Shown here: positions 2,648-34,667 of the stretch, one piece after another | Layout: each line of letters begins with the position of its first letter | Position numbering within the stretch: position 1 is the first letter of the stretch | Virus record (IMG/VR): IMGVR_UViG_3300017733_000014 | Span: 1-38,545 of that record | Direction: 5' to 3' (one strand) | DNA length: 38,545 bases | Origin: a virus | Notes under the pieces: model-generated | Told to the model about the DNA's origin: nothing | The model's input: the letters and a program-made list of their open reading frames with translations, nothing else | Database searches by the model: none | Translations under genes and position numbers: made by a program

Positions 2648-3273
2648 TGAAACTAAAGTCACTATTCAAAGAAGAATTAAATTTATCAAGTGTTAAAACA
2701 CAATTATTAGCACTTAGTAAAAAATATCCAGGTGAAGGTAAATTAACTGAAGCTTTCAAGAAAGGTGATAAAGTAAAATATCTAGGACATCCAGCTGTTA
2801 TAACACATGTTGAAGATAAAATGGGTAAAACTTATTATAGTGTATCATATAATAAAGGCACAGGTAAGACTAAAGCACGTATGATATTATCAACTGATGG
2901 ATCTATTACTGAAGCTTCCGAAACAACAATACATATAAACAAAACTTTAGGATTAGAAATAGTTGAATCCGCAAAACCTGTAGTGTTTCAGGAAGCAGAA
3001 TATCAAGGAAAGAAAGTGAAGTTAGGTAAAGTTAAGAGAGGTGGGTCTAGGAAGTTCTATGTATATGTTAACAATCCAAAGACAGGAAATGTTAAAAAGG
3101 TTTCATTTGGAGATAATACAGGTTTAAGTATTAAAACAAAAGATCCAAAGAAAAGAAAATCTTTCAAAGCAAGACACAAATGCGATCAAAAGAAAGATAG
3201 AACATCTGCAGGATATTGGTCATGTAGAATGTGGTCAGGACCAGATGCAGTTAAAAATATGTTGAAAAAATGA
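2647..3273 (+). CDS. Putative packaged protein with several prohead-protease-like sites and an SH3/KOW-like segment
   Basis: 208 residues. ATG 2647 overlaps the upstream stop (TAATG); an in-frame ATG at 2602 inside the upstream gene is rejected. The start M-K-L-K-S-L-F-K-E-E-L is a variant of the neighbouring tag. Three more hydrophobic-x-Glu-Ala sites occur: L-T-E-A (33-36), I-T-E-A (87-90) and F-Q-E-A (114-117), as expected of a core protein processed into pieces. Residues 38-82 (G-D-K-V-K-Y-L-G-H-P-A) look like a small KOW/SH3 barrel. A basic Cys-containing tail (170-198, A-R-H-K-C-D-Q-K-K-D then G-Y-W-S-C-R-M-W) resembles a motif I recall from marine T4-like phage virion proteins. Function in the head is inference. 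Confidence 0.55.
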   Translation: MKLKSLFKEELNLSSVKTQLLALSKKYPGEGKLTEAFKKGDKVKYLGHPAVITHVEDKMGKTYYSVSYNKGTGKTKARMILSTDGSITEASETTIHINKTLGLEIVESAKPVVFQEAEYQGKKVKLGKVKRGGSRKFYVYVNNPKTGNVKKVSFGDNTGLSIKTKDPKKRKSFKARHKCDQKKDRTSAGYWSCRMWSGPDAVKNMLKK

Positions 3274-3299
3274 TAAAACTAAAAGACATATTATTCGAA
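3270..3299 (+). repeat. Tag-coding repeat, copy 1
   Basis: About 30 bases beginning ATGATAAAACTAAAAGACAT code the tag M-I-K-L-K-D-I-L-F-E. It is about 25/30 identical to the copy at 3806. Similarity to the other copies stops where the bodies begin. Confidence 0.7.
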
Positions 3300-3809
3300 G
3301 TTAAAAAACTTGAAACAAAGATATTTGATCAAGGTGCATTACAAGACTCAATGAAACAAATAAGAAAGCTGGTTGGTATTGAAGAAGCAGATGAAAAATT
3401 TCCATCTAATAAAAAAGTTACATATGAAGAATTCAGATTTGCAAATGGCACAGGAGGATTCTCTTTCAGATGGACACATGGAGTAAAATGGGGTGGACGT
3501 TTATCATTATCTATTAAGGGAGATGGTTCACATGAAATAGAAACTCTTTCTAGGTATGGAGATAAAGAGTTTAGCCAAACAGTTAAGAATCAAAATTATC
3601 TAAGAGACCTCAAAACATGGAGAGATCTAACTAACTTGAATCAGCAGACAATTATTAGTAGTGCTATGGCATCAATCAAAAAGTTTGAAAGACAAGCAGA
3701 ACAAGCTTTTGAAAAGGATAGAGATGCTCAAGCAGCTTATTATGGAGCAAAAGCTGATACAGGAAGGATAGGATATGGCTTATCATCACAACCAAGGAGA
3801 AGACAATGA
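3270..3809 (+). CDS. Putative packaged protein (tag MIKLKDILFEV)
   Basis: 179 residues. The start overlaps the previous stop in ATGATAAAA. The first 10 residues match the tag family, but position 11 is Val rather than Ala/Gly/Ser, so cleavage there may be weak or absent. The body holds a strand-rich part with F-R-F-A-N-G-T-G-G-F-S-F-R-W (about 56-69), then helices, and ends in a basic P-R-R-R-Q. No family recognised. The gene belongs to a run of four starts that are almost identical at DNA level. Confidence 0.55.
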   Translation: MIKLKDILFEVKKLETKIFDQGALQDSMKQIRKLVGIEEADEKFPSNKKVTYEEFRFANGTGGFSFRWTHGVKWGGRLSLSIKGDGSHEIETLSRYGDKEFSQTVKNQNYLRDLKTWRDLTNLNQQTIISSAMASIKKFERQAEQAFEKDRDAQAAYYGAKADTGRIGYGLSSQPRRRQ

Positions 3810-3835
3810 TAAAACTAAAAAATATATTAAATGAA
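3806..3835 (+). repeat. Tag-coding repeat, copy 2
   Basis: Begins ATGATAAAACTAAAAAATAT and codes M-I-K-L-K-N-I-L-N-E. It is 28/30 identical to the copy at 4114. Its first bases ATGA include the stop codon of the upstream gene. Confidence 0.75.
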
Positions 3836-4117
3836 GCAAAAGGTAAATACATGATAGGCCTTAAAGTTGTATCTGCAGATAAGGCGTTATCATATATGTA
3901 TTCAAATCCTAGCAAACCTTTAGGCAAAGGCAGTGATGGTGGACCTCCTAAATGGTATATGACAAATTCAGTCCCAGAGACAGATAGAAGAACTAAATGG
4001 GATACAATAGAAGCTGATATGCCAGCATTAGAAAAAAAATATGGCAAAGGAAATGTAGTAGTAGCCGGCAATACAGGTGGTGGTGATCCAGTAGTACAAG
4101 TATATATGAAATCATGA
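3806..4117 (+). CDS. Putative packaged protein (tag MIKLKNILNEA)
   Basis: 103 residues. This has the best form of the tag, M-I-K-L-K-N-I-L-N-E followed by Ala, which matches the T4 gp21 cleavage rule, leaving a mature protein of about 93 residues. The mature part contains a Gly/Pro-rich loop (G-K-G-S-D-G-G-P-P-K-W) and a Gly-rich C-terminal strand region (V-V-V-A-G-N-T-G-G-G-D-P-V-V-Q-V). The start is ATGA-coupled to the gene before and the stop to the gene after. No family recognised; delivery with the DNA into the host is the inferred role. Confidence 0.6.
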   Translation: MIKLKNILNEAKGKYMIGLKVVSADKALSYMYSNPSKPLGKGSDGGPPKWYMTNSVPETDRRTKWDTIEADMPALEKKYGKGNVVVAGNTGGGDPVVQVYMKS

Positions 4118-4143
4118 TAAAATTAAAAAACATATTAAATGAA
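4114..4143 (+). repeat. Tag-coding repeat, copy 3
   Basis: Begins ATGATAAAATTAAAAAACAT, 28/30 identical to copy 2. It carries the upstream stop inside ATGA. Confidence 0.75.
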
Positions 4144-4425
4144 GATATACCAGAATTTTCTACTAAAGCAGAATCAATAGAATATGAAATGGAAAAAATT
4201 CAAAAAGGTGTTAGAATATCAGAAAGAGAGCCTGGTAAATTTAGAGCACGATGGTCATATGTAAGACAACCATTATCATCTGCAGATTGGAGAGCATCAC
4301 TTAAACTAGTTATGGATGCAGGAGGAAAGATTGATAAAGAATGGACTAGGAATGATTATGAAGCAAATTATGAAAGAGAAGAGCCGCCAGAATGGGTTCC
4401 TTCAATATACTTCTCATTAAGGTAA
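4114..4425 (+). CDS. Putative packaged protein (tag MIKLKNILNED)
   Basis: 103 residues. The first 10 are identical to the previous gene, then the sequences share nothing. Residue 11 is Asp, so cleavage by a gp21-like enzyme would be off-consensus. The mature part is charged, with many Trp and Arg residues (F-R-A-R-W-S-Y-V-R-Q, D-W-R-A-S-L-K), suggesting a small mixed alpha/beta fold. Coupled by ATGA to the upstream gene. No family recognised. Confidence 0.58.
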   Translation: MIKLKNILNEDIPEFSTKAESIEYEMEKIQKGVRISEREPGKFRARWSYVRQPLSSADWRASLKLVMDAGGKIDKEWTRNDYEANYEREEPPEWVPSIYFSLR

Positions 4426-4428
4426 GAT

Positions 4429-4458
4429 ATGATAAAACTAAAAAACATATTAACAGAA
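4429..4458 (+). repeat. Tag-coding repeat, copy 4
   Basis: Begins ATGATAAAACTAAAAAACAT, 27/30 identical to copy 3. Here the upstream gene stops a few bases earlier, so there is no overlap. Confidence 0.75.
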
Positions 4459-4917
4459 TCACCAGAAGACCAAATCAAACAATGTCCTACTGCAACACAG
4501 AAGCTTAAAGTAAACACTGCAAATAGAGATAGAGCAATTCAAGCCGATTTCATTAAGTATGGACCTCTCAACGTTGAACAGCCAGGTGACTATTGGAAAG
4601 AGATAGCAAAGAAATGGAATACAACAGAAGAAGCAGCAATGAAATCCAAATGTATGTCATGTACAGCTTTTGATGTATCGCCAAGAATGTTAGAATGTAT
4701 ACCAGGAGAAACATCTGAGCCAGTTAGAGATGAATTTGGTATATTAGGTTATTGTTGGATGCATCATTTCAAATGTCATTCTGCAAGATCATGCAACACA
4801 TGGGCAGCTGGAGGTCCTATCAAAGAAGATGAAAAGTCATTCGAATGGCAAAAAAGAAATCTTAAATTAGCATTAGACCCAGATCCAATTGATCCAACAA
4901 TGTATAAAGATGAGTAA
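4429..4917 (+). CDS. Putative packaged Cys/His-rich protein (tag MIKLKNILTES)
   Basis: 162 residues. The tag ends I-L-T-E before Ser, which fits the gp21 rule. The middle holds a dense set of Cys and His: C-M-S-C-T-A-F-D (about 75-82), M-L-E-C, G-Y-C-W-M-H-H-F-K-C-H-S-A-R-S-C-N-T-W (about 108-126). This looks like a metal-binding or disulfide module; I recall similar Cys-rich proteins in marine T4-like phages but assign no function. It runs directly into the DUF5872-like gene. Confidence 0.55.
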   Translation: MIKLKNILTESPEDQIKQCPTATQKLKVNTANRDRAIQADFIKYGPLNVEQPGDYWKEIAKKWNTTEEAAMKSKCMSCTAFDVSPRMLECIPGETSEPVRDEFGILGYCWMHHFKCHSARSCNTWAAGGPIKEDEKSFEWQKRNLKLALDPDPIDPTMYKDE

Positions 4918-7317: not shown

Positions 7318-7826
7318 AAAAAGTATTATTAGCAGTACTAGTCTCGCTTGGACTACAAACACAGGCACAACAGATAGCACCATATTTTTGCTGTGATTCA
7401 ATAACATATTGGACAGACCAGTCTCAAGGATTTAACGTAGGACTTGATACATCAAATATAATTCATAATCCAGATTCAATGGATGTATATTGGGCAGTAT
7501 GTACTAATGGTATGTGCTATTCAGGAAACGGTATGTATGCTTTCTTTGGACAAATTATGACAACAGATACAGTTAAAGTTTGTTATGATGTTATACTTTA
7601 TGAAGCAAATACAATGGAAACATGTACTAGGTGTGATAGTTTAATATTTGACCAAAATACCTTTTCATGGGTATTATTTAGTATGGGTAATACAACATCT
7701 ATAAATGAACTAACATTTAATAGAGTTAACGATGGTAAAATTTATGACTTACTAGGTAGAGAATTAACAAAAGCACCTATAGGCAAGTTATATATTAGAA
7801 ATGGACAATTATATATTGCTAAGTAG
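7314..7826 (+). CDS. Secreted protein with type IX secretion sorting tail
   Basis: 170 residues. The signal peptide is clear (M-K-K-V-L-L-A-V-L-V-S-L-G-L-Q-T-Q-A-Q, cut near residue 19). The mature part has many Cys (C-C-D-S, C-T-N-G-M-C-Y, T-C-T-R-C) and strand-rich spacing. The last 30 residues contain K-I-Y-D-L-L-G-R-E-L, then G-K-L-Y-I and a final Lys, the pattern of Bacteroidota Por/T9SS type A sorting domains. In that system the tail directs export through the outer membrane and surface attachment or release. A phage gene with this tail implies use of the host T9SS during infection, or recent capture of a host gene. Confidence 0.65.
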   Translation: MKKVLLAVLVSLGLQTQAQQIAPYFCCDSITYWTDQSQGFNVGLDTSNIIHNPDSMDVYWAVCTNGMCYSGNGMYAFFGQIMTTDTVKVCYDVILYEANTMETCTRCDSLIFDQNTFSWVLFSMGNTTSINELTFNRVNDGKIYDLLGRELTKAPIGKLYIRNGQLYIAK

Positions 7827-7838
7827 TATATTTATTAA
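7827..7838 (+). promoter_or_regulatory. Late-type box upstream of the tmRNA gene
   Basis: TATATTTATTAA resembles the late box (YATATTTATATWAAA) and overlaps the region just after the upstream stop at 7826. It would place the tmRNA under phage late control; a transcript starting here would begin close to the acceptor piece. Confidence 0.35.
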
Positions 7839-8060
7839 TGATCGTTAGTAGTTATATTAGCTGCTTGTATGGACGAGGGTTCGATACCCTCCACCTCCAC
7901 TAAAACAATTACAATATGGGGGTGACTGGATTTGACAGCAAGATAAGGGTATAATGAAGATCACGCATTAACTGGCGAACAAGTTGAAATGGCGATGGCT
8001 GCTTAATTAAGCACCCTAGCAAACGGAGGAAGTCCGTAGAAACTTCGGAGGTGGGGGAAT
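7838..8060 (+). ncRNA. ssrA: Circularly permuted (two-piece) tmRNA
   Basis: The 3' half precedes the 5' half. Acceptor piece: T-stem GAGGG 7875-7879, T-loop TTCGATA 7880-7886, CCCTC 7887-7891, acceptor strand CACCTCC 7892-7898, discriminator A 7899; CCA is not encoded. After an 18-base intervening segment comes the coding piece: acceptor strand GGGGGTG 7918-7924, which pairs over 7 bp with 7892-7898 and keeps the G3-U70 wobble of alanine tRNA and tmRNA, then the tmRNA-specific CTGGATTTGAC at 7926-7936. GCAAG 7938-7942 pairs with CTTGT 7864-7868 and TATAA 7950-7954 with TTATA 7852-7856, forming the long H2 helix. A tag frame GCA 7965 to TAA 8004-8006 reads ALTGEQVEMAMAA. Its stop lies in hairpin TGCTTAATTAAGCA (7999-8012). 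A pseudoknot follows: 8023-8027 with 8033-8037 and loop GAAG 8029-8032 with CTTC 8043-8046. The resume codon and outer ends are approximate. Confidence 0.9.
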
Positions 8061-8078
8061 TATTAAAAAGGAAGAGTT

Positions 8079-8378
8079 ATGACGAAAAAAGATCATGTAG
8101 CAAATATTATGGATAAATGGTATAAAGCTATGCAAAAAGAAAATGTTGGAGTTCAGCCAAAAGCATCTACAATTTTAGGGACAATTTTAGCTGATTACAA
8201 AATTGAACTAAAATCAGATGTACGAGATATTTGGGCTGAAGCAATGACAATAAGAGGAGGAGAGTTTCCAGCTTGGTATGCAAGTTTATCTAAATTAGAA
8301 AAACTTCAATATGAGGAAGGCAGGAAAAGAGCTTCTGAAATGCATGACCCTAGAGAAAGAACATTATTAAAAGGGTAA
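8079..8378 (+). CDS. Hypothetical helical protein
   Basis: 99 residues with a GGAAGAG site at 8070-8076, directly downstream of the tmRNA. The protein is basic at the N terminus and helical, with W-Y-K-A-M, I-W-A-E-A-M and P-A-W-Y-A-S-L-S segments, ending D-P-R-E-R-T-L-L-K-G. No family recognised. It may be on the same transcript as the tmRNA. Confidence 0.5.
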   Translation: MTKKDHVANIMDKWYKAMQKENVGVQPKASTILGTILADYKIELKSDVRDIWAEAMTIRGGEFPAWYASLSKLEKLQYEEGRKRASEMHDPRERTLLKG

Positions 8379-22191: not shown

Positions 22192-22265
22192 GGACGAGTA
22201 GCTCAGTTGGATAGAGCATTAGCCTTCTAAGCTAACGGTCATAGGTTCGAATCCTATCTCGTTCA
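22192..22265 (+). tRNA. tRNA-Arg (anticodon UCU)
   Basis: 74 bases. Acceptor GGACGAG 22192-22198 pairs with CTCGTTC 22258-22264 (one G-U), discriminator A 22265. D-stem GCTC/GAGC, anticodon stem TTAGC/GCTAA with loop CTTCTAA and anticodon TCT at 22226-22228, T-stem ATAGG/CCTAT with loop TTCGAAT. CCA is not encoded. It reads AGA and AGG; AGA is by far the most used Arg codon in the genes of this window. Confidence 0.95.
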
Positions 22266-34058: not shown

Positions 34059-34667
34059 ATGAGTATATATGAAGAAGAACAGAAGAAAGAACCTTTAAAG
34101 ATAGACACTAAAAATAGTGAACTATATGAAGCGTTAAATAATCAATTAATGACATTAGTTGATTTTAAAGATTCGATAATATTTCTTAACGATGAAATAA
34201 ACCAACATACATTAACAGATTTAATAATCCGTACAAGAAATCTATTACAAAATAGAAAAGATAAAACAGCCCCAATTAATTTAATGATTAATTCGCCTGG
34301 CGGAGATGTACATGAAATGTTTGCTATAATAGATTATATGGAATCATTAGATGTTAAAGTAAATACTATTTGCAGAGGTAAAGCGTTTTCAGCAGCTGCT
34401 GTTATTTTAACATGTGGTACTGGTACAAGAATGATGAGTAAACGATCGACGATGATGTTCCATCAATCATCTAGTTTTCTTGGAGGTAAAATGTCTGATA
34501 TAACAGCATATTTAGATAATGTTAAAAATTTAGAAAAACATGTATATTCTTTATTAGCTGAACGTACAAATAAAGATGCAGAATATTGGAAAGAACATAT
34601 GAGATCAGATATGTTTTTAACAGCAGAAGAAGCAAAACAATTAGGAATAATAGACCAAATAATATAA
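34059..34667 (+). CDS. clpP: ClpP-family serine protease
   Basis: 202 residues, the normal ClpP length. The full triad is present: Ser111 in G-K-A-F-S-A-A-A, His135 in M-M-F-H-Q-S-S, Asp184 in M-R-S-D-M-F-L-T-A-E-E-A. The oxyanion strand is N-S-P-G-G-D-V. It should form the barrel peptidase used with ClpX, ClpA or ClpC. T4-like phages of marine hosts sometimes carry ClpP, and in other phages ClpP acts as a prohead protease. Here two roles are open: maturing the tagged packaged proteins, or degrading host or tmRNA-tagged proteins with a host unfoldase. No phage Clp ATPase is seen in the window. Confidence 0.88.
   Translation: MSIYEEEQKKEPLKIDTKNSELYEALNNQLMTLVDFKDSIIFLNDEINQHTLTDLIIRTRNLLQNRKDKTAPINLMINSPGGDVHEMFAIIDYMESLDVKVNTICRGKAFSAAAVILTCGTGTRMMSKRSTMMFHQSSSFLGGKMSDITAYLDNVKNLEKHVYSLLAERTNKDAEYWKEHMRSDMFLTAEEAKQLGIIDQII

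Follow-up and report, generated by a model that had tools for sequence, protein, structure and literature searches.

Does this stretch of viral DNA encode a working transfer-messenger RNA (tmRNA) whose halves lie in reversed order, and if so, where did the gene come from? Two-piece tmRNAs are known in alpha- and betaproteobacteria, cyanobacteria, and mitochondria (available text of PMC3985003) and in some phages (available text of PMC9004378). A preliminary description of the window (the whole 38,545-nt stretch that was analyzed) had proposed a phage-borne, circularly permuted tmRNA, and reading of the sequence placed the gene at positions 7838 to 8056. From 5' to 3', P2 strands, the T-arm, and the 3' acceptor strand with A73 are followed after 18 nt by the 5' acceptor strand and CTGGATTTGAC. 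Then come the remaining P2 strands, the tag frame with its stop, a stop-codon hairpin, and a pseudoknot (Table 1). The window therefore has a tRNA-like domain with alanine identity (G3·U70) and a T-arm, and the T-arm and 3' acceptor strand precede the 5' end in the gene. The T-arm and acceptor had been placed at 7875-7899 and the 5' acceptor strand at 7918-7924, pairing over 7 bp with G3·U70 across an 18-nt gap, and all of this held. CCA is not encoded in the window, where CTA lies directly 3' of A73.

Table 1. Parts of the permuted tmRNA gene in the window
Feature	Position	Strand	Basis or remark
Acceptor piece (3' half of mature RNA; P2 strands, T-arm, acceptor, A73)	7838..7899	+	5' end not defined; ARAGORN, RF04321, covariation
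P2c 3' strand, pairs with 7959-7963	7839..7843	+	Homologues have CG, AU, or UA at 7842-7960
P2b 3' strand, pairs with 7948-7955	7851..7858	+	Covariation; RNAalifold independently
P2a 3' strand, pairs with 7938-7942	7864..7868	+	Alignment pairing
T-arm, 5-bp stem, TTCGATA loop	7875..7891	+	Sequence, RF04321, alignment
3' acceptor strand CACCTCC (7892-7898) and discriminator A73 (7899)	7892..7899	+	Sequence, alignment
Intervening sequence, 18 nt, removal expected	7900..7917	+	16-22 nt among 31 sequences
Coding piece	7918..8050	+	3' end not defined, about 8046-8056
5' acceptor strand GGGGGTG, 7 bp with 3' strand, G3·U70 = G7920·U7896	7918..7924	+	Sequence, alignment
D-loop-like ACTGGATTTGACAGC	7925..7939	+	Identical in 2 of 3 Bacteroidales one-piece tmRNAs
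CTGGATTTGAC	7926..7936	+	Sequence
10-nt leader, P2 to resume codon, too short for pseudoknot 1	7964..7973	+	Sequence
Frame of the tag GEQVEMAMAA, from resume codon GGC (7974) to stop TAA	7974..8006	+	ARAGORN, family tags
Stop-codon hairpin, 8000-8004 with 8009-8013	8000..8013	+	92.1% of cells paired (alignment)
H-type pseudoknot: S1 8023-8026/8034-8037, S2 8029-8033/8042-8046	8023..8046	+	Pseudoknot search; found without shuffle control

An ARAGORN search in linear mode called a permuted tmRNA (tmRNA*) at 7807 to 8097. The Rfam tmRNA_permuted model (RF04321), a merger of the alpha, beta, and cyano models according to the available text of PMC11915505, matched the window with 67.5 bits (E, 4.5e-11; cutoff, 47). 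The same model also matched 5 of 14 control genomes, including E. coli and B. subtilis, with one match above the cutoff, and it gave 47- to 65-bit matches in many Pseudomonadota genomes, taken as listed without inspection. Therefore, the RF04321 score alone proves little. RF01850 (betaproteobacterial two-piece) gave a partial window match of 43.8 bits, below its cutoff of 84. RF01849 (alphaproteobacterial; cutoff, 50 bits) had no window row at an E of ≤1, a search in which lower-scoring clan overlaps are hidden behind the 43.8-bit match. RF01851 (cyanobacterial; cutoff, 70 bits) did not list the window and partially matched loci L039 (54 bits) and L023 (48.1 bits).

Folded by itself for minimum energy, the window sequence did not form the tmRNA structure (14 of 200 shuffles folded equally well; z, -1.45). 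This single-sequence fold is uninformative, and the evidence is comparative. A promoter and terminator scan found three promoter-like sites, compared with 3.5 in shuffles, and no terminator.

We used a pattern requiring the T-arm before the 5' end and obtained 34 stretches from 2.9 million viral contigs. ARAGORN called a permuted tmRNA in 31 of them (all except L034, L036, and L044). The window was aligned with 26 distinct loci, leaving out L023 and L039 (which have 37-codon tags), L031, L038, L044, and identical copies. All 26 kept the permuted order, not a one-piece order. Together with the ARAGORN call and the above-cutoff RF04321 score, this bears out a permuted, phage-borne tmRNA. When the structure derived from the window was applied to the alignment, 96.5% of 961 pair cells were standard and 11 pairs had two-sided changes. 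Two-sided cells numbered 70, compared with 20.9 in shuffles, and of 500 shuffles none reached the alignment values in four of the measures and 3 did so in a fifth. With partners slid by 1 to 3 columns as a control, standard pairs dropped to 40 to 52%. RNAalifold, given the alignment as its only input, recovered P2, the T-arm, the acceptor, and pseudoknot stem S1.

We also examined P2 without an alignment. For 31 sequences (L031 and L038 included), duplexes of a sequence's own pieces averaged -16.4 kcal/mol, whereas swapped pieces averaged -10.7 (standard deviation, 0.53; 0 of 2,000). For 13 diverse sequences including the window, the values were -17.0 and -12.0 (standard deviation, 0.85; 0 of 5,000). 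Compensatory changes and these swap tests indicate that the acceptor stem and P2 link the two pieces, as had been proposed from the long helix segments that pair across the junction. An ordinary one-piece tmRNA with its 3' half further downstream would be compatible with the RF04321 score alone, but in the whole window ARAGORN found only the permuted tmRNA and a tRNA-Arg at 22192, and covariation shows that P2 and the acceptor stem are formed by strands on either side of the spacer. The one-piece reading is refuted for practical purposes.

The hairpin and pseudoknot proposed to follow the tag frame were also upheld. The hairpin is paired across the alignment (Table 1), and the second pseudoknot stem changes in step among 30 sequences (GAAGC/GCTTC, GAGGT/ACCTC, GAGAC/GTCTC, GGGC/GCCC, and GAAGT/ACTTC; no shuffle control), with another fold preferred by the search in L031, L034, L039, and L042. 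Another search yielded 22 stretches. By eye, L031 and L044 (already known), L062, L072, and L077 are tmRNAs, and the other 17 are not. Some loci (L013, L015, L021, L022, L024, L025, L026, L035, L041, L043, L045, and L046) carry a conserved, apparently structured element just 3' of the tmRNA pseudoknot, consisting of a hairpin like GAGGGT...ACCCTC, then GCGTCTGAGACGTC, and then AGCT...AGCT. It is absent from the window, and no Rfam match to it was found in six scanned loci (L022, L025, L035, L043, L045, and L046).

The tag of the window is GEQVEMAMAA. The preliminary description had given ALTGEQVEMAMAA, in which the frame ending in AMAA was right but which is three residues too long, its first three codons (ALT) being leader rather than frame. 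Among homologues, the length of the stretch before GGC varies by non-multiples of 3, and ARAGORN also gives GEQVEMAMAA. Therefore, the tag starts at the GGC at 7974. A 10-codon tag of the form G-(E/A)-(Q/H/T)-V-E-(M/L)-A-M-A-A is found in 27 of 27 sequences. In all of them the differences at Ala codons 7, 9, and 10 are synonymous, and the stop is TAA in 22, TAG in 4, and TGA in 1. The M-A-A end had been thought unusual and a possible reason for a different protease. However, the alpha-type tags ANNNSAPVAMAA, ANDNVASDLRMAA, and ANDNFAEGELMAA have M-A-A ends too, so this end by itself is no reason to expect another protease. A phage ClpP was considered as the tag's partner and rejected: CLP_protease was found in only 7 of 33 records, and the best PHROG match of the window's copy, a ClpP-like protein at 34059-34667, is a head maturation protease. 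By eye, its catalytic Asp position looks like His.

Two permuted tmRNAs of this family, L023 (8482-8703) and L039 (9937-10159), have a 37-codon tag with the outline GTQIKSVKAG-FA-LAAIRLLATE-AMAA, which ARAGORN misreads. The same tag occurs in L047, a contig of a metagenome-assembled genome (MAG) that does not differ from L023 in the stretch compared. No further 37-codon tags were found in a second scan.

Coding pieces of two-piece tmRNAs typically carry pseudoknots PK1 and PK2 (available text of PMC3985003). PK1 is described as the one pseudoknot that E. coli tagging needs, and a hairpin can substitute for it (available text of PMC3968760). The window lacks this layout of PK1 before and PK2 after the tag, having one pseudoknot, after the stop. 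With only 10 nt between the end of P2 and the resume codon, pseudoknot 1 cannot fit. Measured from GAC, the resume codon lies 37 to 49 nt away in 13 of 13 diverse compact-family sequences (the window included) and 41 to 42 nt away in four more. In alpha-type genes this distance is 62 to 66 nt in 25 of 26 (L111 gives 93; 4 of 30 loci, L086, L090, L108, and L110, did not match the anchors). Other values are 65 nt (one beta-type gene), 60 (Pelagibacter), 58 (phage Mosig), 69 (phage Calle_1), and 76 (three of three Bacteroidales one-piece genes). (The alpha- and beta-type genes are from Pseudomonadota genomes and were typed by tags and scores.)

A hairpin at the resume codon, proposed by RNAalifold, was considered as a replacement for pseudoknot 1 and rejected. 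One pair covaries, in 3 of 27 sequences, and the energies are no better than those of codon shuffles (30 sequences of the family had a mean z of 0.04, with one at P < 0.05; 22 other sequences had a mean z of -0.47, with three at P < 0.05). Alpha-type genes show similar hairpins. From the coordinates we estimate the compact tmRNA at about 200 nt. A tmRNA of this size with no room for pseudoknot 1 offers a test of what trans-translation requires.

Can such an RNA work? Very probably, the window carries a functional permuted ssrA gene, and the RNA uses host SmpB for ordinary trans-translation. The phage lineage appears T4-like, and its hosts are most likely Bacteroidota. A search of 33 records, many of which are fragments, found no phage SmpB in any; the control search gave hits in 10 of 14 genomes. 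It is quite improbable that the gene is a decaying relic or a decoy that titrates SmpB. In favor of that view, there is no room for pseudoknot 1, normally needed in E. coli tagging (available text of PMC3968760), and a phage DS6A tmRNA with little beyond the tRNA-like domain has been reported in connection with tmRNA inhibition (available texts of PMC11915505 and PMC4131195). However, synonymous changes keep the tag frame in 27 of 27 sequences, the stop hairpin and pseudoknot are conserved, and in E. coli, as noted, pseudoknot 1 can be exchanged for a hairpin.

We infer the host, processing, and function of the window tmRNA, the mechanism being drawn from established trans-translation. RNase P would cut the transcript before G7918, and 3' trimming after A7899 would leave two paired RNAs. 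The host would add CCA to the acceptor piece, and host AlaRS would charge the two-piece tmRNA. Host SmpB would then carry it to stalled ribosomes, translation would resume at GGC 7974 and add A-GEQVEMAMAA, and host C-terminal-tag proteases would take the product. The phage might benefit from ribosome turnover during infection, as RNA cleavage makes many nonstop mRNAs, or it might be replacing a host RNA under destruction; both are guesses. Phage tags unlike the host's would make phage-tagged peptides distinguishable in infected cells.

A Bacteroidota host is most likely, because of the tmRNA type and of the hosts known for other phages that share this RNA design. The window itself is a 38.5-kb fragment without a hit to T4-type Gp23. 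Among 11 records, this protein had a strong hit in three relatives and a weak one in the record of L072, and the lineage is apparently T4-like. Counting against a Bacteroidota host, the isolate nearest to the capsid protein of the L025 contig is Microcystis phage Mel-JY01 (51.7%), with Rhodothermus phage RM378 (37.8%) next, and one homologue lies in a Pelagibacter MAG. Mel-JY01 had no tmRNA match over a cutoff, only a 17-nt match. A T9SS sorting domain in an upstream gene was considered as a host marker and dropped, with no Pfam or NCBIfam hit at an E of ≤1 and PF18962 absent. Shine-Dalgarno-like 4-mers precede 21 of 59 chosen open reading frames, compared with 215 of 1,187 among all ATGs, which allows no firm conclusion about the host. 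Four successive window genes share a near-identical N terminus (MIKLKNILNE-like; 3263-3303, 3799-3839, 4107-4147, and 4422-4462; 71 to 80% DNA identity to the first). These N termini resemble T4 capsid-targeting propeptides.

We then followed matches to the T-arm among phage records, which pointed to Maribacter phage Panino, Chryseobacterium phage MA9V-3, and crAss-like phages. ARAGORN called permuted tmRNAs in Panino, MA9V-3, and eight crAss-like phages (cr125_1, cr114_1, cr50_1, cr10_1, cr52_1, cr60_1, cr115_1, and cr272_1), which GenBank labels plain tmRNA. By eye, the permuted order is also present in cr53_1 (L005) and cr113_1 (L112). An ARAGORN tmRNA call was absent for these two and for L116, L117, L120, L121, and L122. 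Five crAss-like genes scored under the RF04321 cutoff (L003, 46.3; L012, 40.0; L113, 37.5; L114, 41.3; and L115, 40.3). New here is the same compact design in Maribacter and Chryseobacterium phages and in at least eight crAss-like phages.

Phage two-piece tmRNAs as such have been published: the available text of PMC9004378 reports them for 53 of 133 unique phage tmRNAs by ARAGORN, 50 of the 53 marine or aquatic, and names SAR11 and OM43 phages. Among the literature matches listed, none described a permuted tmRNA in a Bacteroidota phage. Table S1 of PMC9004378 may include some of these phages. In the Panino paper a single transfer-messenger RNA is mentioned, and the word permuted is absent from the main text (PMC11590407). 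The earlier remark that no described case was known fits the searchable papers, but the genes were already in GenBank as plain tmRNA.

Cellulophaga phages Calle_1 and phi40:1 (L006 and L007) have one-piece tmRNA genes instead. Their frame seems to begin at GGAAACAACACG, which would make the tag about 30 residues long, compared with 22 by ARAGORN. The Calle tmRNA count is given in the available text of PMC8776804. In cr113_1 (L112, 710-1291), the tmRNA intervening sequence holds most of an opposite-strand endonuclease gene, which overlaps the T-arm, and in cr114_1 (L010, 1045-1117), it holds a tRNA-His. RAGATH RNAs, which are of unknown function, occur near crAss-like permuted tmRNAs, from overlap with the tmRNA 5' edge to about 420 nt upstream: RAGATH-9 (L003, 805-973; L010, 521-688; L113, 535-714; L116, 535-714), RAGATH-20 (L112, 363-463; L114, 250-352; L115, 360-461), and RAGATH-22 (L008, 354-520).

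Where did the permuted gene come from? We compared 36 positions of the tRNA-like domain outside the acceptor stem with other tmRNAs, three of them Bacteroidota records and none cyanobacterial (L111 was absent from this comparison). Identical positions numbered 35 of 36 for the one-piece gene of B. finegoldii, 34 for that of P. massiliensis, and 30 for that of P. distasonis. One beta-type gene matched at 28 of 36, 25 alpha-type genes at 0.58 to 0.65, and the Pelagibacter gene at 0.55. The three Bacteroidales genes are from plasmid-labelled records; their neighbors look chromosomal in two, and the third is unannotated there. The domain match of 35 of 36, the Gly resume codon, and the lack of an encoded CCA support a Bacteroidota-type tmRNA, within the bounds of 36 positions and three records. 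The Gly resume codon is not exclusive to this type, since phage Mosig shares it.

In an exact-pattern scan of 84,980 species (spacers of 8 to 38 nt), the only bacterial contig to match belonged to a Pelagibacter MAG. Since this MAG has a different, alpha-type tmRNA of its own as well, the contig is probably a binned phage contig. The exact pattern leaves room for permuted tmRNAs in Bacteroidota bacteria, and the few checked (the three Bacteroidales records) carry the one-piece form. Because the domain is nearest to Bacteroidales one-piece genes, the resume codon is Gly, CCA is not encoded, and the lone bacterial contig is probably phage, a separate permutation in a Bacteroidota phage appears to be the likeliest origin on these 36 positions, three Bacteroidota records, and no cyanobacterial sequence.

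A rival origin is transfer out of a known two-piece lineage, either alphaproteobacterial (SAR11) or another, like the transfer proposed for Melnitz. In its favor are the homologue in the Pelagibacter MAG and the two-piece tmRNAs already known in SAR11 and OM43 phages. Mosig resumes at Gly, Mosig and Pelagibacter have only 58 and 60 nt before the resume codon, and the beta-type domain is not very distant. We nevertheless consider transfer unlikely. The domain is closer to the Bacteroidales genes than to the alpha-type and Pelagibacter genes, the window resumes at Gly as the Bacteroidales genes do, whereas most alpha-type genes and the beta-type gene resume at Ala, its leader is shorter, CCA is not encoded, and the Pelagibacter MAG has a different tmRNA of its own. 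As for the course of a separate permutation, we lean toward a single event in a Bacteroidota-type one-piece gene, with pseudoknot 1 lost. The gene would since have passed into Bacteroidota phages that are not related to one another (T4-like, crAss-like, podophages, and very large phages), its tags drifting freely to up to 37 residues, while the hosts kept the one-piece form. If this is true, phage two-piece and host one-piece tmRNAs are a natural experiment in which both compete for the same SmpB and ribosomes.

Among the closest known systems are the Panino, MA9V-3, and crAss-like permuted tmRNAs. Like the window, they have 40 to 45 nt from GAC to the resume codon in nine measured genes (cr115_1 excepted) and do not encode CCA where printed. 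However, their spacers are longer (39 to 214 nt in six measured), some fall under the RF04321 cutoff, and their tags, such as GNFYVTDYTRIAA and GKVMNVSFAPTVRQFA, are unrelated to that of the window. Mosig (SAR11) and Melnitz (OM43) also carry a phage-borne permuted gene (available text of PMC9004378; Mosig was checked here). The Mosig tag, GEDNFALAA, likewise begins with the Gly resume codon, but the gene matches the alphaproteobacterial model (67.6 bits), encodes CCA, and has the longer 58-nt stretch. The Bacteroidales one-piece tmRNAs share the Gly resume codon and the unencoded CCA with the window, but they have the normal order, a 76-nt stretch before the resume codon, and the tags GETNYALAA, GNENYALAA, and GENNYALAA. 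Alphaproteobacterial two-piece tmRNAs (RF01849) have a permuted gene, a tRNA-like domain, and a tag, as the window does, but they differ from it in the identity of that domain, in resuming at Ala as a rule, and in the 62 to 66 nt that precede the resume codon.
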